Shown piece after piece: positions 5,375-24,964 of a stretch of DNA of 25,350 nt; the stretch's first letter is position 1; every line of letters starts with the position of its first letter. Source of the DNA: a virus; IMG/VR virus record IMGVR_UViG_3300032331_003108, positions 1-25,350 of that record; one strand, 5' to 3'. Position numbers and translations under genes: made by a program. The notes below the pieces were generated by a model that saw only the letters and a list, made by a program, of their open reading frames with translations, had not been told where the DNA came from and did not search any database.

Positions 5375-8300
5375 TTATTGAGTATTATTATTGTTACCAC
5401 CATCATTATAAGTTGGTGCATTGTAACTTCCAAAATCCCAATATAAATATATTTCACCTGGATTAGGTGACGTATTTGGGTTAAGAAATACGTTAAGAGA
5501 ATTATCAGAACCTAAAAGTTGAGTTGACTTATAAAAAATAGGTTTATATTTAGTTTCTATTGTATTAGCACGTAAATATATTTCACAATCTGGGTCGGTT
5601 AGATTACCGTTTGAAACTGTAATTACTGAACCACTAAGTTCACCATTGAAAAATTCATCTTGATTTGATTGAGTAAATACTACATTACCAACTAAACTAG
5701 GTGTAGTACCACTCCAACTTTGAGTAATATTAACATATAAGTCAGTAGATGCAGTTCCATTAAATTCAGGCATTACTCCACCAGAACTACCTGTTACTTG
5801 TTCAATAGGAAATGATTCGTAATCTGTAGATGATGTGTAAATTCTTTGACCATCTAGTATTCCAGGTATACCTCGTATTGAACCTGTTATTGTTATATCT
5901 TCAAATACATTAGGACTATTCCATACTGGAGTACTACCACTACCATAAACAGATTGGGTTGTATATAAATCCATTTGTGGAGTTGGGTAACGATTACGTT
6001 CCAATAAATGTTGTTTAATTACAACACCTGATGCTAGAGCGGTATGTGCAGGAACAAAATCTTGAAGCATCTTAAATAAAGAGTTATCAAAGAATTTGAT
6101 AAGTCTTACATAATCCCAAATGTTATAATTTGACTTATATTTTTCAAAATATGTGTTACGTAGTGTATCTAATGCGGTATAACTAGTATTTCTAGACGGT
6201 ATATAACGTGGATCACCAATATATTCACCCATATTGAAATATCCAAATGTATCGTTGATATCGTCGTTTATTTCGTTTTGAGGTGAGAATGCTACTTCAA
6301 CATAATCAACATTATTAGTATAAGAACTACTTATTGATGGTTGTTGTTGAACTGATACAAATGGTGATAAAACTTTATTATCAGGTATGTTACTATCACT
6401 TCCCGAGTATGGTAATACTATATTTTTATTTTGGATTTTTTCAGATACAGCGTTTTGTATACCTGCGGGTACTTGGTCATAAAAGAATGTTTCTGTATTA
6501 GAGACAAATTGTCCATCTGTTAAATTTATACTAGCAGTACTAGTAGATACAAAAGATGATGTTGTTGTCCAAGAACCAGTAATTTTAGGATGGATAGATG
6601 TACTACCTGTATATAGTTCTCCACCTAATGGTAATCTAAAAGCTAAATAATCATATCCATCTCCAACTCCATTCCCTTCAATAGAGTATGGGTTCATGAT
6701 ATAATCTTTAATACTAGATTCGTTTAATGCTAAATTTCCATAATAACGTACTTCCTGTAATGAACCAGATAATGGTTTGTATTGAATTGAATTATATGTT
6801 GAGGCAGAAGGTAAGAATGATGATGTTACGGCATTTGTCCATCCAGAAAAACCACCTAAAGAATAAGTATATGATGCGGATGCATAATATCCTAATTTAT
6901 TTCCGTCGTATCCATCATATTGAATATTACCAGCATATATTGTAGCAGTTGTACTTGTAACTGTTAACGTTACTGACCACCAATCTTCATTTAAAAAAGG
7001 TAAATATAATGTTGGGGTAAGTGCAGGAAGACTTGGTCCAAAAAATTTTAACTCTGCATATTGATTGTAAGGGTCAGGTATTGAACCAGCATATGATCCA
7101 CTAGTTAAGCCAGATCCAGTATAATTTAATACTACACATGGTTTATCAATCCCATTATCTAAACACCATAATGTTGTTTTAGTGTTGGTAAAAATATCTT
7201 CAGTATTTGCTACTTTAAATCTAAATTGTAGTGTAGTTGGTCTATTATTATTAATAACAGAATTCCAATTTGAGTTAAGTTGAAAATTTGTTCTTACAGC
7301 AGGAGCTGTAGGAGCTGAAGATGTGTAGTTGTAAGCATAATTATATTCATCTTGCCAGTAATCCCAAGTGTTAGAATCTTTATTTTTTCCTCCAAACTCA
7401 TTTATACGTAAAATGGTATCTGGTATACCATATGATGTTATTAAAGCACGTAAACCTTCAGGCGTACCTTTTTTCTTTAAAATATAAGGTAAATTATGAT
7501 ATATACGTTTATAAGTTTCAGCATTAATATCAAATGTAGGATCCAATGAACCTGTACTTGAGGCTGTAACGTAAGTGTTAATATAATCTAAAAAAGAACC
7601 TGTTGGAACAGGTAATGATCCTGTTGTAAAAGGTAAATTATATAAGCTACCTGAAGGTGTTATACCTAATAGAGCTGAGTATAAGTCGTCTGTTGAGAAG
7701 TTGTTTTGGTATATTTTAATTCCTAAATCTCTTAAAACATCTGCTACTAAATCTTTAGATACACCATGATCAACACGATTATCAGCATTATATTTATTTG
7801 TTACATCTTTTATATATACCCAAACACTATCAAAGTTTTGACCAACCATATCAACAAATAATATATATTGATCGTTATTTGAATCATCTGTTAAATATGA
7901 TGGTATAGCGTTTATTAAACGATTATTATTTTGTGAATCATAATCTTCAGCAACTATTGATTGTGATGCTAAAAATGCTAAACCGTTAACTGAGTTAGGA
8001 GATGAATTTATATATGGGTATGTAGAGTTAGTTTTAGGCCATGCTGTACTACCTGATTCATAATATAGATAATACTCATATCCATCAAATCCTGTTATAA
8101 TTTCATCTATTTTATTTGTCCAAATATTACTACTATTTATAATAAAAGAGTTCGTTGTACTTGTGATTAAGTTAGCATTTGATTGATATTGATCAATTAA
8201 AGATAATTTATAATAAAAATTTTCTAACCGTGTTTTAGCTGAAGAGAAAAAAACAAATTCAGAGTAATCTGAATAGTTTATATTTATTTCTAAACCTTTT

Positions 8301-9127
8301 TCGGCTAATATACTATTAATCTGGTATTGTAGACTATTTGATCCTAAAGGTGATGTATTTGAAGTTAAACTATTATACGTGACATATGGGGTAGAATTAT
8401 TAATTTGATCTTTTATTGCTATGTTAGTGTTAGGACCTCTAAGATAAATATTTTGATCTAATTCATCAAATGTTTGGATAATATTAATATTATAAGCAAC
8501 TGGTTCAGCTATAGATTCTACTACCCAACATTGTGATTGAATGCTGAAGTTGTTAGGTAAAGGTTCATATAATTTAATTAATACTGTTGGATCATTTGGG
8601 TTAGTAGTAACATCTAATAAAATATTATTAGCAATAATGAGGTTATTATCACCAAAATCAAGGTAAAAATCTATAAATAAACCACTAGAATTTCTATAAG
8701 TAATAAAATCACTTACACTTGTTATCACTTCACCGTTAGGAATAACAGTTGTATTAAGTCTAACTTCAGTTCTATCTGAACTAATTTGGTCTATATAATA
8801 ACGATTAAGAGGACTTGAACCTGCTCTATTTCTTAAAAAATTATATAATGTATTATAATTTCCTTCAGTATAACCTTGAGTTTTTAAATCATTTTCAGGA
8901 TCTATAAAAAGATTATTATTTAATAAAGTAAATTGTAGATATCCAATAGTATTTGAAAATAATATATTATTATTTAAATCATATATGAAATATTCTATAT
9001 GATCCGTAGTTGAATCAAAATTCTCAAACGTATCTGTTGTAGAGATGAGATTAATATCATCTGGAGTGTAAGTTTGGAGTTCAAATGTTACTGCGTCTAA
9101 ACTCTGTATGTTAACAATTTCGGCCAT
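5375..9127 (-). CDS. 1250-aa baseplate/tail structural protein with LamG-like domain (gp7 position)
   Basis: This is the largest gene in the window. The N-terminal 500 residues are Asn/Ser-rich beta structure. Residues about 540-582 form a conserved block (YHNLPYILKKKGTPEG, then RALITSYGIPDTILRINEFGG). Residues about 605-815 look like a LamG/concanavalin-like jelly roll: LQFRFKVANTEDIF, WCLDNG, WWSVTLTVTSTTATIYAG and a closing LSGSLQEVRYYGNLAL. A second conserved block around residue 1020-1055 reads FFDNSLFKMLQDFVPA and then HLLERNRYP. These blocks recur in large structural proteins of phages from aquatic Bacteroidetes. Being downstream of gp25 and gp6 matches the position of T4 gp7, but homology to gp7 is inference. 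The LamG-like module could bind glycans. Confidence 0.7.
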   Translation of the reverse strand: MAEIVNIQSLDAVTFELQTYTPDDINLISTTDTFENFDSTTDHIEYFIYDLNNNILFSNTIGYLQFTLLNNNLFIDPENDLKTQGYTEGNYNTLYNFLRNRAGSSPLNRYYIDQISSDRTEVRLNTTVIPNGEVITSVSDFITYRNSSGLFIDFYLDFGDNNLIIANNILLDVTTNPNDPTVLIKLYEPLPNNFSIQSQCWVVESIAEPVAYNINIIQTFDELDQNIYLRGPNTNIAIKDQINNSTPYVTYNSLTSNTSPLGSNSLQYQINSILAEKGLEININYSDYSEFVFFSSAKTRLENFYYKLSLIDQYQSNANLITSTTNSFIINSSNIWTNKIDEIITGFDGYEYYLYYESGSTAWPKTNSTYPYINSSPNSVNGLAFLASQSIVAEDYDSQNNNRLINAIPSYLTDDSNNDQYILFVDMVGQNFDSVWVYIKDVTNKYNADNRVDHGVSKDLVADVLRDLGIKIYQNNFSTDDLYSALLGITPSGSLYNLPFTTGSLPVPTGSFLDYINTYVTASSTGSLDPTFDINAETYKRIYHNLPYILKKKGTPEGLRALITSYGIPDTILRINEFGGKNKDSNTWDYWQDEYNYAYNYTSSAPTAPAVRTNFQLNSNWNSVINNNRPTTLQFRFKVANTEDIFTNTKTTLWCLDNGIDKPCVVLNYTGSGLTSGSYAGSIPDPYNQYAELKFFGPSLPALTPTLYLPFLNEDWWSVTLTVTSTTATIYAGNIQYDGYDGNKLGYYASASYTYSLGGFSGWTNAVTSSFLPSASTYNSIQYKPLSGSLQEVRYYGNLALNESSIKDYIMNPYSIEGNGVGDGYDYLAFRLPLGGELYTGSTSIHPKITGSWTTTSSFVSTSTASINLTDGQFVSNTETFFYDQVPAGIQNAVSEKIQNKNIVLPYSGSDSNIPDNKVLSPFVSVQQQPSISSSYTNNVDYVEVAFSPQNEINDDINDTFGYFNMGEYIGDPRYIPSRNTSYTALDTLRNTYFEKYKSNYNIWDYVRLIKFFDNSLFKMLQDFVPAHTALASGVVIKQHLLERNRYPTPQMDLYTTQSVYGSGSTPVWNSPNVFEDITITGSIRGIPGILDGQRIYTSSTDYESFPIEQVTGSSGGVMPEFNGTASTDLYVNITQSWSGTTPSLVGNVVFTQSNQDEFFNGELSGSVITVSNGNLTDPDCEIYLRANTIETKYKPIFYKSTQLLGSDNSLNVFLNPNTSPNPGEIYLYWDFGSYNAPTYNDGGNNNNTQ

Positions 9128-13321: not shown

Positions 13322-15223
13322 TTAATAAGCTTTTAAATTATCTCTATCAATTATTAATTTAAGTTCATTAATTAATATTAAATCTTGTGTTGTGAATGAT
13401 AGTTCGGTTTGTACTAATATAATACCACTTTGATTTTTCCCCACAGCTCTTCTACGATTTACTGTTGGAGTGTATGGTACTTCTTCAATTTCTATTAAGA
13501 ATCCAGCATATGTAACTTGATTAATTGTATTATCTGCTTGAGTTTGTTGAGCTGCTATAGATATTAAATCATTTGAAATTGGTGTTAAACCGGGGAATAC
13601 TGGAGCGTTTGGTGGGGTATTAGATACATTACCTGCTAAATCAGGGGCACATTGTTTTAATTTAATATCTAAAGCTGACAATATTCCTACTATCTGTTGT
13701 ATATATAGGTTCACTAATGATATTGCGAGTGATGCAGATGCTATTGAATTAGCAATTTTGGGTAAACGTGGTGTACCATCTTTTTCAAATGTTGATTTAT
13801 TTATTATAGTTTCTAAATCACTTAATGTTGAAGTAACAACACCAGGAACACCAGGAGGACTAGGTACAGTTTTAACAGCCAATGATGTTGCTGTTTTTGT
13901 AGTTTTTAAAGCATCTATAACTGTTTGACTTATACTAAGAAATGTATTTAATCCGGTTAATGCTAATGTAAGTGTATTTAATTGTTTACCAATAATATTT
14001 AAAGATGTTACTAAATTATTTCGAGTGGCAATAAGTTCTTTAATAGTAGAATCATTTGGATTTGGACAACCATCAGCAAATACTGTTTTTAATATTGTAA
14101 CTATTTGTTTAGGAAGTTCATTAAATGTGAATGATCCAAAATTTATCAATTGGGTGCGTAAATTATCTTCAGCAATTTGTAAAGTTACAGGTATTGCTTC
14201 TTTTTTAGCAGTTAATGTTTTTATTAATGCTTCTGTTTCTGATCCTTTAATACCATTTTTTACTTTTTCATTTAAAGCATCAATTTGATCTTGAATTTTT
14301 TGTTGTTCTTTTGGTACTTTTTCTTTTAATTTTTTAATCTCATTTTCTACTATTTGAGTAATAAATTTTTTAACAATACCAATAGCAATAGGTATTAATA
14401 CTACTATTATTTTTTTACCTAAAGCTGTTATAGCTTTACTCAACTTAGCATTACCTTTAGCTTTTAATGATTCTGGGGTTGCGTTTTCAATAGCAGGTAA
14501 ATCAACATCTATAATTTTAGTATTATCACTTTTAATTTGCTCTGCTTCTTTTTTTCTTGTATTTTCTATATCTAATGGGGTTGGTACTTTTTCACCAATA
14601 CTATCTAGGGGTGGGGTAGAAAGAAGGGGAGGAATAACTTCAATGATAGTAAATGTTTTATCTATTTTTTCTTTTGAAAAAGCCTCTATGATCTTCTCTA
14701 GCATACCATTTGCTAGTTTTTCATAATCTTCATTAGATATGGGTTCATTTGGAGATGTATCGTCAAATTCATTGGTAAGAGTTGTACCTGCTAAATTATC
14801 ATATTGATATGTATCTATGAGTTGTAAAAAAGCGTCCGCACCTTCTGTTGAGTTAAGACTGTCGTCTCTCTCAGGAGGAGAATTGGGAAAAGTCGTAGTT
14901 ACTTTTATTATAGATCCTTCTATGGTGAAAGTAATTTCCTGTCTATAATTTCTTTCATTTGTAGATATTGGATTTGTTATACCAATTATGTAAATAGGGG
15001 TAGAATTTATACGGTTTTGAGTAGGAGATATTTCAGAAGTATTTAATTCTGGAGTTGGGTTATTAATTTTCTTAATAAGACTTATATTTTGACTAGCGGT
15101 ACCTGTATAATTTTGTATACCTTTTTCTTCAGCTAGTTTTTTTCTATTTGCAAAAGAAGAATCTATTCCTTTAGATCTAAGAAAATCAATAATACTATTT
15201 GTATAGTTTGAAGAAGATGCCAT
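13322..15223 (-). CDS. 633-aa phage protein with cell-wall-like N-terminal module and central coiled coil
   Basis: Residues 5-52 (YTNSIIDFLRSKGIDSSFAN, then RKKLAEEKGIQNYTGTASQN) strongly resemble a short module I associate with phage and bacterial cell-wall hydrolases and tail proteins of the pattern DYLKSxGxDSSFxxRxxLAxxxGIxNYTGTAxQN. Residues about 265-290 form a hydrophobic helix (IIVVLIPIAIGIVKKF), followed to about residue 340 by a charged coiled coil. The C-terminal third has long helices and ends with a beta domain (YAGFLIEIEEVPYTP). Lying between the gp5-like spike and gp25, it could be a baseplate hub protein or one that meets the cell envelope during injection; neither can be shown here. 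It is too unlike T4 gp53, gp27 or gp29 by eye to name. Confidence 0.62.
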   Translation of the reverse strand: MASSSNYTNSIIDFLRSKGIDSSFANRKKLAEEKGIQNYTGTASQNISLIKKINNPTPELNTSEISPTQNRINSTPIYIIGITNPISTNERNYRQEITFTIEGSIIKVTTTFPNSPPERDDSLNSTEGADAFLQLIDTYQYDNLAGTTLTNEFDDTSPNEPISNEDYEKLANGMLEKIIEAFSKEKIDKTFTIIEVIPPLLSTPPLDSIGEKVPTPLDIENTRKKEAEQIKSDNTKIIDVDLPAIENATPESLKAKGNAKLSKAITALGKKIIVVLIPIAIGIVKKFITQIVENEIKKLKEKVPKEQQKIQDQIDALNEKVKNGIKGSETEALIKTLTAKKEAIPVTLQIAEDNLRTQLINFGSFTFNELPKQIVTILKTVFADGCPNPNDSTIKELIATRNNLVTSLNIIGKQLNTLTLALTGLNTFLSISQTVIDALKTTKTATSLAVKTVPSPPGVPGVVTSTLSDLETIINKSTFEKDGTPRLPKIANSIASASLAISLVNLYIQQIVGILSALDIKLKQCAPDLAGNVSNTPPNAPVFPGLTPISNDLISIAAQQTQADNTINQVTYAGFLIEIEEVPYTPTVNRRRAVGKNQSGIILVQTELSFTTQDLILINELKLIIDRDNLKAY

Positions 15224-19842: not shown

Positions 19843-20331
19843 CTAAATATATTTTTGTCCTATTTGTTTAACAATATCTATCGCTTCATTGATGGGTAAT
19901 TTAAAAAATTCTCTATTATTGCTCACCCGGTACATATCTAAAGATCTATGAATTTCATTTTCTAAAAATTCACCTTCATGACATTTAAATGCAAATTCAA
20001 TTACAAACGGTGTAGGTACTCCAGTAGTCGATGATATTTGTCTAGCACGTTCTTCTGGTGTTAATTTAGTATGACCTATCTTAACCATATCTGGCATTGA
20101 AGTATTAGATAAAACATATATCCAATATTTACCCTCACCTGTTCTAACCAATGGATGCTTTTTACGGTTAGTGTAATAAAATACATCATCCCATTCCTCC
20201 CATCCTTCTTCAAGACACTGAACACGTGTAAAATATTCAGCTGGATATCCTAAAATATCATCATCTACATTGATATATTCTTCAGCTTCTTCTGGTGTTA
20301 TATATTTCGGCTTCTTCGGGATATATTTCAT
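19843..20331 (-). CDS. T5orf172 / GIY-YIG-superfamily protein
   Basis: This 162-aa protein has a C-terminal domain (residues about 69-150) with YWIYVLSN, then MVKIGHTKLTPEERARQIS, STTGVPTPFVIEFAF, and finally IHRSLDMYRVSNNREFFKL. This order of motifs is the T5orf172 (MUG113-like) branch of the GIY-YIG superfamily found in phages and in mobile-element or anti-phage proteins. The N-terminal 65 residues are acidic and aromatic (DDILGYPAEYFTRVQ, GWEEWDDVFYYTNR) and unassigned. It lies 15 bases beyond the tRNA 3' end and probably shares the P2 transcript. DNA nicking is the family expectation; the target is unknown. Confidence 0.78.
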   Translation of the reverse strand: MKYIPKKPKYITPEEAEEYINVDDDILGYPAEYFTRVQCLEEGWEEWDDVFYYTNRKKHPLVRTGEGKYWIYVLSNTSMPDMVKIGHTKLTPEERARQISSTTGVPTPFVIEFAFKCHEGEFLENEIHRSLDMYRVSNNREFFKLPINEAIDIVKQIGQKYI

Positions 20332-20346
20332 TTCAGGATATTTAAG

Positions 20347-20421
20347 TGGACCTTGTAGGACTTGAACCTACGACCTTCACATTATGAGTGTGCTGCTACT
20401 AACCAACTGAGCTAAAGGTCC
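20347..20421 (-). tRNA. tRNA with CAU anticodon, probably tRNA-Ile2 (AUA-decoding)
   Basis: The coding strand folds as a cloverleaf of 75 nt: acceptor GGACCTT with AAGGTCC (seven perfect pairs) and discriminator A; anticodon loop CTCATAA on a GCACA/TGTGA stem whose outer pair is G-A; variable loop AGGTC; T stem GTAGG/CCTAC with TTCAAGT loop. The D stem is short (GCT/AGC) with an extra base in the loop. CCA is not encoded. CAU could be Met or lysidine-modified Ile2. The C4-G69 and C5-G68 pairs, reported as TilS determinants in E. coli tRNA-Ile2, and the TTCAAGTCC T-arm favour Ile2, which would help translate the many AUA codons of this genome. Confidence 0.9.
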
Positions 20422-21291: not shown

Positions 21292-21843
21292 TCAACAAAT
21301 TTCATCAATTATTCCGTAAACTAGCGCATCTTCAGCGCTCATGTACCAATCTCTATGTTCTTTCTTAACAATATCTAACTGTTTTTTAGTTAAATTGGTA
21401 CTTTCTAATATAATAGAGTCATATATATTCATGATTCGTTTACCTTCTTCAACTTCACGTTTATGTGATGATAACTTTTCATCATTTAAAGACCATAATA
21501 TTTCATGATACATGAAGGTACTATGTTTACTAGCACTACGTTTATGTCCTGAAGCCATTATAATAAATCCCATTGATAAAGCAGCACCATAACATACTGT
21601 ATGAACTGGAGTAACACTATCTATAATAGCGTCTACAACACCGAAACCCCGGTATATATCACCACCATACGAGTTAACGATGATAGTTATTGGGTCTCGT
21701 TTACTCTCAGTTTTTTCCGCGTCTAAATAGTTGATTTCGTGTATGAATTGTATGATATCGTTAGCATTTTCTTCGTCAATATCACCTAAGGTTATAATAC
21801 GGTTGTCTTGATATCTATAAGAATTATGCGCTGATTTTTTCAT
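21292..21843 (-). CDS. clpP: ClpP-like serine protease subunit
   Basis: At 183 aa this is near the length of bacterial ClpP (about 195-205 aa). The catalytic triad is visible: S90 in YGAALSMGFIIMASG, H113 in STFMYHEI, and D165 in HRDWYMSAEDA. NSYGGDIYRGFGVVDAI matches the substrate-channel strand and helix of ClpP, and it ends with YGIIDEI as in bacterial ClpP. ClpP normally forms a 14-mer and needs an AAA+ unfoldase; no ClpX or ClpA is in the window, so it may use the host's, or act as a prohead protease or host-proteolysis modulator (T4-like phages normally use gp21 for proheads). It may share the thyA transcript; an AATAAATA-type motif also lies 17 bases upstream. Confidence 0.9.
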   Translation of the reverse strand: MKKSAHNSYRYQDNRIITLGDIDEENANDIIQFIHEINYLDAEKTESKRDPITIIVNSYGGDIYRGFGVVDAIIDSVTPVHTVCYGAALSMGFIIMASGHKRSASKHSTFMYHEILWSLNDEKLSSHKREVEEGKRIMNIYDSIILESTNLTKKQLDIVKKEHRDWYMSAEDALVYGIIDEIC

Positions 21844-22127: not shown

Positions 22128-23258
22128 CTAGTTGGATAAAGGTGCTTTAATTATTGGGTGAGATTGATAATTACTTAACTGAATATCTTCTTCTAATAAA
22201 CATTTGCAGAAGTTGTCATTTTTAAACGATTCAAACACTTTAACAGCATCCAAAGGACCTACACCACACTCACCACCTTCATAAGGCCAAAACTCTGTGT
22301 TAATGTTTAGTTTAGGTAATTCAAATGGTTCTCTACCAATTTGCTCTTTTGCTTGTTCTATATGGTTATTGTACAAGTGTACATCACCTAAATTACCAAT
22401 TAGTTCATCAGGAACCATATTAACTGAAGTAGCAATGATCTCTAATAATAAGCCATAAGAAGCAATGTTGAATGGTAAACCTAAAAATGTATCTACTGAT
22501 CTTTGATTCCACATTAAAGAGATTGCTCTAGTTGGGATATTTTGTTCATCTGCTTTTTTTATTAACAATTCTAAACCAAAAGCCATTAACCCATCTGCTT
22601 GTTCTGTAACATTTGGTAATAATATTTGTAACCGTTCTTTTTCACTCAACTCTCTTGTATAAACTTGAAATCCATAATGACAAGGCGGAAGAACCATTTG
22701 GTCTAACTCTCCAATATTCCAAGCATTAACCATTAATCGTCTTGAGTCTGGATTTGTTTTAAGGTTGTTGATTAGATTTTGGATTTGGTCTATGCCTGGT
22801 TTAAGAACTTTTTTAGGTACATCAATCGTAGCCCATTCACCCCAATTTTTCCATTGTGCCCCATAAATTTTTCCCAAATCCCCAAACTTCTTAGCAAACT
22901 CATCATCTGTTTTGATACGTTCGATGAACTCATCCATCGTATCGGGCCAATCACCTTTATATTCATTTGTCTTACTGATGTAATTCTTAAAAGCGTCACC
23001 ATTCCAAATATTACAACCATTATCAACTAAGAATTTAATATTAGTATCACCACGTAAAAACCATAATAATTCAACTACCATAGTTTTCCATGCCATCTTC
23101 TTAGTTGTAAGTAATGGAAACCCTTCACTCATTTTGTGACGTATTTGTCTACCAAATACTGAAGTGGTACCTGTACCTGTTCTGTCTTGTTTTGTAACAC
23201 CGTTATCCAAGATGTCTTGGAGTAGGTCTGTGTATGCTTTATCTAATTTATTATTCAT
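22128..23258 (-). CDS. thyA: Thymidylate synthase, ThyA type
   Basis: This enzyme methylates dUMP to dTMP with methylene-tetrahydrofolate. Visible landmarks are R26 in DRTGTGTTSVFG, MVVELLWFLRGDTNI, SRRLMVNAWN near residue 172, the catalytic C193 in LPPCHYGFQVY, and QRSVDTFLGLPFNIASYG around 252-269. At 376 aa it is about 110 residues longer than E. coli ThyA (264). The extra length includes an insert of about 40 residues (about 203-245) between the catalytic Cys strand and the QRSVD motif, and longer loops around residues 85-125. It is a continuous ORF without the intron found in T4 td. It starts in an ATGA overlap with the 88-aa gene. It supports phage DNA synthesis from an AT-rich genome. 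Confidence 0.95.
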   Translation of the reverse strand: MNNKLDKAYTDLLQDILDNGVTKQDRTGTGTTSVFGRQIRHKMSEGFPLLTTKKMAWKTMVVELLWFLRGDTNIKFLVDNGCNIWNGDAFKNYISKTNEYKGDWPDTMDEFIERIKTDDEFAKKFGDLGKIYGAQWKNWGEWATIDVPKKVLKPGIDQIQNLINNLKTNPDSRRLMVNAWNIGELDQMVLPPCHYGFQVYTRELSEKERLQILLPNVTEQADGLMAFGLELLIKKADEQNIPTRAISLMWNQRSVDTFLGLPFNIASYGLLLEIIATSVNMVPDELIGNLGDVHLYNNHIEQAKEQIGREPFELPKLNINTEFWPYEGGECGVGPLDAVKVFESFKNDNFCKCLLEEDIQLSNYQSHPIIKAPLSN

Positions 23259-23521
23259 AACTCTTTATTGTTTATTCTATATATGTTATTGTTGTTTATT
23301 AATTGAGGGTTTATTTCTAATATATTAACAATAGCGTGTACAATCTCTTTTGGACTAAATGAAGTCTTCCAATCACACTCTTCAGATACTTCATCTACCC
23401 ATTGCATGTAGAGTTTATATAATTCATCTTTGTCTATTTCAAGACGTTCGAAGGCACCGTCTGGGCCTATTTGAAAGTCGTCTGAGATGTATGGTGGGTT
23501 GTCTTTATTTACTTTGTTCAT
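23255..23521 (-). CDS. 88-aa protein between thioesterase and thyA
   Basis: This acidic protein reads NPPYISDDFQIGPDGAFERL, then a helical segment (KDELYKLYMQWVDEVSEECD) and a C-terminal helix (SPKEIVHAIVNILEINPQL). Its start overlaps the end of the thioesterase gene by 17 bases and its stop overlaps the thyA ATG by four bases (ATGA), so the three genes look translationally coupled. No domain is recognised. Confidence 0.62.
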   Translation of the reverse strand: MNKVNKDNPPYISDDFQIGPDGAFERLEIDKDELYKLYMQWVDEVSEECDWKTSFSPKEIVHAIVNILEINPQLINNNNIYRINNKEL

Positions 23522-23927
23522 TATTTAAACTTTCAATTAATTTTGTAATTCTATTTTTACCTTTCTCATTAATAGGGATTGGATTTCCTTCTTCATCAAT
23601 TCTAACAAATCTTATGTTAGTCTTTAATACAACAATTTGATTACCTGTATACACATTGTGTGCTCGAGCCTCCATATACAACGTTAATGATGTATTACCT
23701 AGTTTATTAGGATATCCATAAATCTTTAATAACTGGCCTTCTTTTGCTGGTTTCTCAAAATAGCATTTATCAATAGACACAGTTACCATTCTTGGACTAT
23801 CACATAATTGCATTGAGTAACCAGCGGCTGCTGAGTCAATCCATGCTAATAATTTTCCTCCAAATAGATTTCCATGAAAACCTAAATCAGATTTTTTAAT
23901 TGGGTGTGTATTTAATAATTCCATCAT
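23505..23927 (-). CDS. Acyl-CoA thioesterase-like hotdog-fold protein
   Basis: This 140-aa protein has the YciA/BACH hotdog pattern: FHGNLFGGKLLAWIDSAAAG (residues 17-36), where an H-x-N/D and a central-helix Asp (D31) line the active site, then SIDKCYFEKPAKEGQLLKIY, and TSLTLYMEARAHNVYTGNQI with a terminal FVRIDEEGNPIPI strand. These enzymes hydrolyse acyl-CoA thioesters in the cytoplasm. ATGs at 23927 and 23924 are both possible starts. It sits just before the 88-aa gene and thyA. A phage copy could change host acyl-CoA pools, lipid synthesis or membrane composition; this is inference. Other hotdog activities (e.g. acyl-ACP thioesterase) cannot be excluded. Confidence 0.86.
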   Translation of the reverse strand: MMELLNTHPIKKSDLGFHGNLFGGKLLAWIDSAAAGYSMQLCDSPRMVTVSIDKCYFEKPAKEGQLLKIYGYPNKLGNTSLTLYMEARAHNVYTGNQIVVLKTNIRFVRIDEEGNPIPINEKGKNRITKLIESLNNEQSK

Positions 23928-24430: not shown

Positions 24431-24964
24431 TTATATACGCTTTTTTCTACCACGTTTACCGCCTTTACTAGCCTCAACTTTGGCTTGTCGCACCGCTTTT
24501 TCTTCAGGCGTGTACTTAGATGGACGACCTCGCTTACCATTACTCTTACTATGTTTTAATGCTTTTTCTTGTTCACGTTTTGCCTTCTCTTCTACGGATA
24601 ATGGTTTACGACCTTTTTTACCCGGTGTGGTATTTTTAGGTTTAGAGATTTTAACTTCATTTGTATTTTCTTTATTACCAAATGTTTTAATTCCCAGAAC
24701 ATATGGGTGTACAATCACTTGATCTAAATCATAACTATATACACAACCACCATCACCGTAGTATACTTCAAATCCACCATTTGGAAATGTTTTTTTCTCA
24801 CCTGGATTATACATTGCTTTTAGTGTGAAATATTCGTTGGGCTCATGGAAAAAATCCGCGGGCAACACTCGTACAGATTTTACAAAGTTTTTGAATTGTA
24901 ATTCAACATCCTCATATACTTTATATGGAATGTAACCGTCTTTTAATTTCTCTATTATTTTCAT
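24431..24964 (-). CDS. DNA-binding protein with three C-terminal AT-hook-like motifs
   Basis: The first 95 residues of this 177-aa protein form a compact alpha/beta-looking domain (YKVYEDVELQFKNFVKSVRV; GGFEVYYGDGGCVYSYDLDQ). The C-terminus is a basic tail with three AT-hook-like cores: KKGRKP (116-121), KRGRPSK (144-150) and KRGRKKR (170-176), separated by EEKAKREQEK-like helices. AT hooks bind the minor groove of A/T-rich DNA. Promoter P1 sits directly upstream, with its -7 element ending four bases before the ATG, so the message may be leaderless. A role in binding or organising AT-rich phage or host DNA, or in transcription control, is inferred; no enzyme domain is recognised. Confidence 0.76.
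   Translation of the reverse strand: MKIIEKLKDGYIPYKVYEDVELQFKNFVKSVRVLPADFFHEPNEYFTLKAMYNPGEKKTFPNGGFEVYYGDGGCVYSYDLDQVIVHPYVLGIKTFGNKENTNEVKISKPKNTTPGKKGRKPLSVEEKAKREQEKALKHSKSNGKRGRPSKYTPEEKAVRQAKVEASKGGKRGRKKRI

Follow-up and report, generated by a model that had tools for sequence, protein, structure and literature searches.

A predicted YciA/ACOT-type thioesterase encoded near thymidylate synthase in Bacteroidota phages

Known hotdog thioesterases

Among the acyl-CoA thioesterases of family TE6 in the ThYme classification the closest described relative of the protein discussed here is YciA (HI0827), in which Asp44 was identified as catalytic by mutagenesis (PMC2698920). In mouse ACOT7, Asn24 works together with Asp213 in catalysis (PMC2698920), such that a role of the asparagine is cited for ACOT7, whereas for YciA the aspartate alone is cited. 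TE6 enzymes are marked by an F/H-G-G triplet where the central helix starts; the first glycine of this triplet has been suggested to polarise the carbonyl of the thioester through its backbone NH (PMC10560148). The cytosolic ACOT7 and ACOT12 belong to the same family and are double hotdog proteins. Their aspartate-bearing domain has a threonine in the place of the asparagine, which is supplied by the second domain, itself devoid of the aspartate.

Related proteins have been annotated in phages. The product of immuto26A_50 in phage immuto_2-6A is recorded as 'hydrolase/thioesterase' and is 66% identical to the protein described here. Xanthomonas phage XacN1 encodes an 'acyl-CoA thioesterase', ORF409, and Stenotrophomonas phage RAS14 a homologue of it; both are 4HBT hotdog proteins of jumbo phages, with 39% and 36% identity, respectively. 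The matching protein family in PHROG, 18230, is listed as of unknown function. A literature search yielded no paper on an acyl-CoA thioesterase of the phage clade described below.

The gene and its surroundings

The gene was found in a virus contig fragment of 25,350 nucleotides (25 kb), positions 1 to 25,350 of IMG/VR record IMGVR_UViG_3300032331_003108, which as a whole is called the window. Aquatic Bacteroidota are the hosts of its carrier, a large tailed phage. The positions of all features are collected in Table 1. The product is probably 139 rather than 140 amino acids long, starting M-E-L-L from the second ATG at 23924, because this is the start used by most relatives; residue numbers below refer to the 140 amino acid frame. 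Four minus-strand genes follow each other in the order 145-aa open reading frame, thioesterase, orf88, and thyA. The thioesterase gene overlaps orf88 by 17 nt and orf88 overlaps thyA by 4 nt, so the link to thymidylate synthase claimed in the original prediction holds in the window, with a single 88-aa reading frame in between. This small frame is kept intact in one relative (L007); in another near relative (L006) most of it is lost, and its first residues run in frame into thyA.

Table 1. Positions of the features in the window and in related phage records
Record	Feature	Position	Strand	Basis or remark
window	thioesterase ORF	23505-23927	minus	140 aa, ATG start; Pfam PF03061, PHROG 18230, structure model
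window	codon of Gly16	23880-23882	minus	position of partner Asn in other TE6-type enzymes
window	F22-G23-G24 triplet	23856-23864	minus	start of central helix; F/H-G-G signature of TE6
window	codon of invariant Asp31	23835-23837	minus	aligned with catalytic Asp44 of YciA
window	orf88 (88 aa)	23255-23521	minus	ORF call; between thioesterase and thyA, overlaps both
window	thymidylate synthase ThyA (376 aa)	22128-23258	minus	PF00303, E=1.8e-91; PHROG 160
window	AT-hook-like protein (177 aa)	24431-24964		K/R-G-R-K/P motifs
window	ClpP-like serine protease	21292-21843		Pfam CLP_protease, 9e-27
window	tRNA-Met	20346-20421
window	T5orf172/MUG113 protein	19843-20331		GIY-YIG-like
window	633-aa protein	13322-15223		near baseplate genes
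L007	orf88, intact	1090-1356
L006	thyA with fused orf88 start	1673-2905
L001 (immuto_2-6A)	cassette: thioesterase and two tiny ORFs	7645-8385
L002 (immuto_3-5A)	unrelated ORF (82 aa) at the same site	8073-8354

Open frames of ThyA relatives extend to about 440 amino acids, and the Pfam model of the family covers 266 positions. A search for promoters and terminators gave 19 sigma-70-like sites as compared to 19.7 in shuffled sequences, i.e. no excess, one match to a Bacteroidetes-type promoter where 1.4 were expected, located on the opposite strand, and no terminator. These results therefore do not inform on the timing of expression.

Fold and family

The window protein passes the cut-off of the Pfam family 4HBT (60.8 bits, E=1.6e-16, cut-off 20.6) and matches PHROG 18230 over nearly its full length with 82.7 bits. 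The YciA equivalog NCBIfam NF007970 is matched only weakly, with 30.2 bits against a cut-off of 162, which argues that the protein is not YciA itself. Sequence matches in the PDB are nearly all acyl-CoA hydrolases or thioesterases (best E 2.6e-16).

A single-chain AlphaFold model, computed from 24 sequences (window, viral contigs, and bacteria), predicts the fold with high confidence (pLDDT 93.9, pTM 0.87) and contains the expected central helix (residues 24-42) and beta sheet. Its top structural match is YciA HI0827, with Z 19.2 and 24% identity (rmsd 1.8 over 135 of 140 residues), followed by y2039 (Z 18.3) and Cj0915 (Z 17.6), and the 11 best entries by Z score, ranging from 16.6 to 19.2, comprise these three, NmACH, and other acyl-CoA hydrolases. 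Chains of the YbgC type scored lower, with Z of about 14.1-14.3. A viral structure library yielded only two convincing matches, one of them annotated as a PaaI-type thioesterase. By its modelled structure the window protein has a hotdog fold of the YciA/ACOT (TE6) type, in agreement with the hotdog thioesterase that had been proposed from the sequence. A fold and an enzyme family can thereby be given to PHROG 18230, which is abundant in environmental viral contigs.

A variant active site

The HGNLFGG...D pattern noted in the original prediction spans residues 18-31 (H18, G19, N20, F22, G23, G24, and D31). Among 63 distinct viral proteins the F22-G23-G24 triplet and Asp31 are kept without exception, as are D14, G16, H18, G19, and N20, which makes nine invariant motif positions. 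Asp31 is likewise found in all 59 rows of a wider alignment, and Thr49 is invariant in the viral proteins as well as in the wider alignment.

The partner of the aspartate is replaced. Fifteen residues before it, at the position of Asn24 in ACOT7 and, by position, of Asn28 in the S. aureus enzyme, the phage clade and its sister clade have glycine in every row (36/36), whereas the remaining bacterial and phage rows have asparagine (23/23). In the window protein this is Gly16, a difference from YciA, with which fold, F-G-G triplet, and catalytic aspartate are shared. Histidine at position 18 accompanies the glycine in 35 of the 36 rows and is found in two of the 23 others; judged from this alignment His18 is a candidate replacement for the lost asparagine. 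The HGN letters are therefore a mark of this clade rather than the classical catalytic motif. The domain fold is the same as in ACOT7 and ACOT12, but the phage protein has one domain only, so that its homo-oligomer would be without any such asparagine.

Conservation of the active-site residues, on which the assignment as an acyl-CoA hydrolase had been made to depend, is thus found for the aspartate and not for its partner. Since a catalytic role of the asparagine is cited for ACOT7 and not for YciA, its loss lowers the claim that the protein is a standard TE6 enzyme, not the claim that it works like one.

Distribution and selection

The gene had been considered uncommon among phages. This is true for cultured phages, where a homologue was found in 9 of 50,697 records, including distant ones from Enterococcus and Staphylococcus phages (29-31%) that fall outside the phage clade. 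It is not true for phages from the environment: one exact-peptide scan gave confirmed matches in at least 347 IMG/VR contigs, and a second scan at least 562 matches.

In a tree of 59 proteins, the bootstrap of which is not fully settled, a phage clade (support 98/91) unites immuto_2-6A with 28 viral-contig representatives, an uncultured phage of 642 kb, and one contig (L087) of a Sphingobacteriales bin that we judge from its neighbouring reading frames to be a phage contig. Sister to it are five proteins from Bacteroidota chromosomes (98/96), and both clades together have a support of 99/96. Some relative is present in 291 of 296 Bacteroidota genomes, a member of the sister clade in five only. 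The same Asn-to-Gly change was seen in rare chromosomal thioesterases of Bacteroidota that lie in unrelated gene contexts (L196, L197, L198, L199, L200, and L088). The thioesterases of XacN1 and RAS14 have kept the asparagine and fall in a Pseudomonadota-type clade; jumbo phages have therefore captured such enzymes at least twice.

The phage clade spans phages from 160 kb to 642 kb, and the median dN/dS is about 0.06 (48 pairs with dS of 0.1-1.0). The thioesterase gene has long been part of phage genomes and is under strong purifying selection. A stray insertion, which would have left the gene absent from all relatives, is rejected by the viral contigs counted above, the supported clade, and the low dN/dS. 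Recent transfer from the host's own enzyme is also rejected in the case of the common Flavobacterium enzyme, as this one shows about 40% identity, belongs to another clade, and has kept the asparagine.

A natural experiment in Flavobacterium phages

Phages immuto_2-6A, immuto_3-5A, and immuto_13-6C are all recorded from Flavobacterium sp. LMO8. The first carries the thioesterase a few hundred nt from thyA, in a region of queuosine/7-deazaguanine genes. The genome of immuto_3-5A was searched for a copy and has none, a different small reading frame being present at the site, and no thioesterase match came from immuto_13-6C in the search of cultured phage records. The flanks of the cassette are 94.5-99.7% identical between immuto_2-6A and immuto_3-5A. 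This pair is a natural experiment: on one Flavobacterium strain, two almost identical phages differ in a small gene cassette that includes the thioesterase. As sister isolates without the gene grow on LMO8, the thioesterase is not needed for plaque formation there. The swap spans about 740 nt and includes two other small reading frames, so phenotypic differences between the two phages could not be attributed to the thioesterase alone. A 2020 study of LMO8 phages makes no mention of immuto phages or thioesterases.

Association with nucleotide metabolism genes

In 10 of the clade's 15 lineages a gene of the thymidylate synthase family is located no more than 3 kb from that of the thioesterase, as compared to 0.70 expected at random; the corresponding P of 7.5e-11 is valid only for independent lineages, which these are not. 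The synthase gene is upstream in seven lineages and downstream in three, and because the side varies the linkage appears to be maintained and not merely inherited as a gene order. Across the records the neighbours of the thioesterase are genes of nucleotide metabolism. A gene of the IMPDH/GMP-reductase family is found within 3 kb in two of seven lineages (P about 0.02 if independent) and also in the vicinity of the thioesterase that XacN1 and RAS14 acquired separately. This association is suggestive only, and GMP reductase as a real partner of the enzyme is a weak candidate. Neighbour counts per 90% thioesterase cluster were not used as statistics for either gene, since many contigs end near the thioesterase gene.

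Genes of lipid metabolism were sought in 21 virus records, possibly incomplete, of which 20 contain the thioesterase and one is a thioesterase-negative sister. AMP-binding proteins and PlsC were each found in 0/21 and ACP in 2/21, while control genomes gave matches. A phage lipid pathway built around the thioesterase, with ACP, acyl-CoA synthetase, and PlsC, was rejected on this ground.

Proposed role and alternatives

The reading we prefer, with a probability of about 0.6, is that of an accessory YciA/ACOT-type acyl-CoA thioesterase which shifts the acyl-CoA/CoA balance of the host during phage DNA synthesis. In the infected cell the protein, probably a hexamer formed as a trimer of dimers, would split host acyl-CoA thioesters into free CoA and an acid. 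The general base or nucleophile of this reaction would be Asp31, and polarisation of the thioester carbonyl would fall to the backbone NH of Gly23, located at the helix start. Gly16 in the place of the partner asparagine, nearly always combined with His18, makes the active site a variant one, which may differ from that of YciA in rate or in the range of substrates. The gene is carried in a nucleotide-metabolism block together with thymidylate synthase. As it is optional on at least one host strain, tuning of the CoA/acyl-CoA pool in replication fits better than an essential step in lysis or at the membrane. If active, the enzyme would give the phage a handle on the host CoA/acyl-CoA pool, for which no description in a paper was found.

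A repurposed hotdog protein, binding CoA or a nucleotide-like ligand or cleaving a non-acyl thioester, and serving nucleotide metabolism alongside ThyA, joined in some phages by GMP reductase, is unlikely, although several observations point in its direction. These are the clade-wide change of Asn to Gly, the strong and order-independent thyA linkage, the IMPDH/GMP-reductase-family neighbours, and the near absence of lipid genes; in addition, related enzymes are regulated by GDP according to the titles of PDB entries 5szu, 5szv, and 5szy, or bind ADP (4mob). The catalytic aspartate, the F-G-G triplet, and the threonine are, however, kept without exception and would be needless in a pure binding protein, and clusters of phage genes often reflect expression class rather than pathway. 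A further form of this idea, in which the hotdog enzyme of the Bacteroidota-phage clade, with its site rebuilt by the Asn-to-Gly change and His18, has moved off lipid metabolism to act on CoA or a nucleotide-linked or other thioester for nucleotide supply, would explain why the linkage to thyA is independent of gene order, but we consider it quite unlikely.

Equally doubtful is the lipid-directed takeover put forward in the original prediction, here taken as the release of fatty acids from long-chain acyl-CoA to alter the membrane lipids of the host before lysis. TE6 enzymes do include long-chain acyl-CoA hydrolases, and hydrolysis of acyl-CoA releases a fatty acid in any case, but beyond the fold nothing in the data favours this role: save for ACP in two records no other lipid genes accompany the thioesterase, its neighbours are nucleotide genes, and it is dispensable on LMO8. 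Phospholipid synthesis in bacteria, moreover, draws mostly on acyl-ACP or acyl-phosphate rather than on acyl-CoA. That the phage carries a functionless host gene as a passenger is hardly credible and as a general statement refuted by purifying selection, since absence from two closely related isolates stands against the low dN/dS, the invariant motif positions, and a clade old enough to span the range of genome sizes given above.

Further features of the window

The C-terminal half of the 177-aa protein contains repeated AT-hook-like motifs, and the protein has no family match in Pfam or PHROG. The 633-aa protein begins with ~65 residues that match a part of the L-alanyl-D-glutamate peptidase and endolysin families of phages (PHROG 2307, 5115, and 5182); the long region after them has no peptidase or endolysin match. 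The best PHROG match of the stand-alone ClpP-like protease is a head maturation protease, with no recognised head genes adjoining it in the window. The GIY-YIG-like protein directly adjoins the gene for tRNA-Met.
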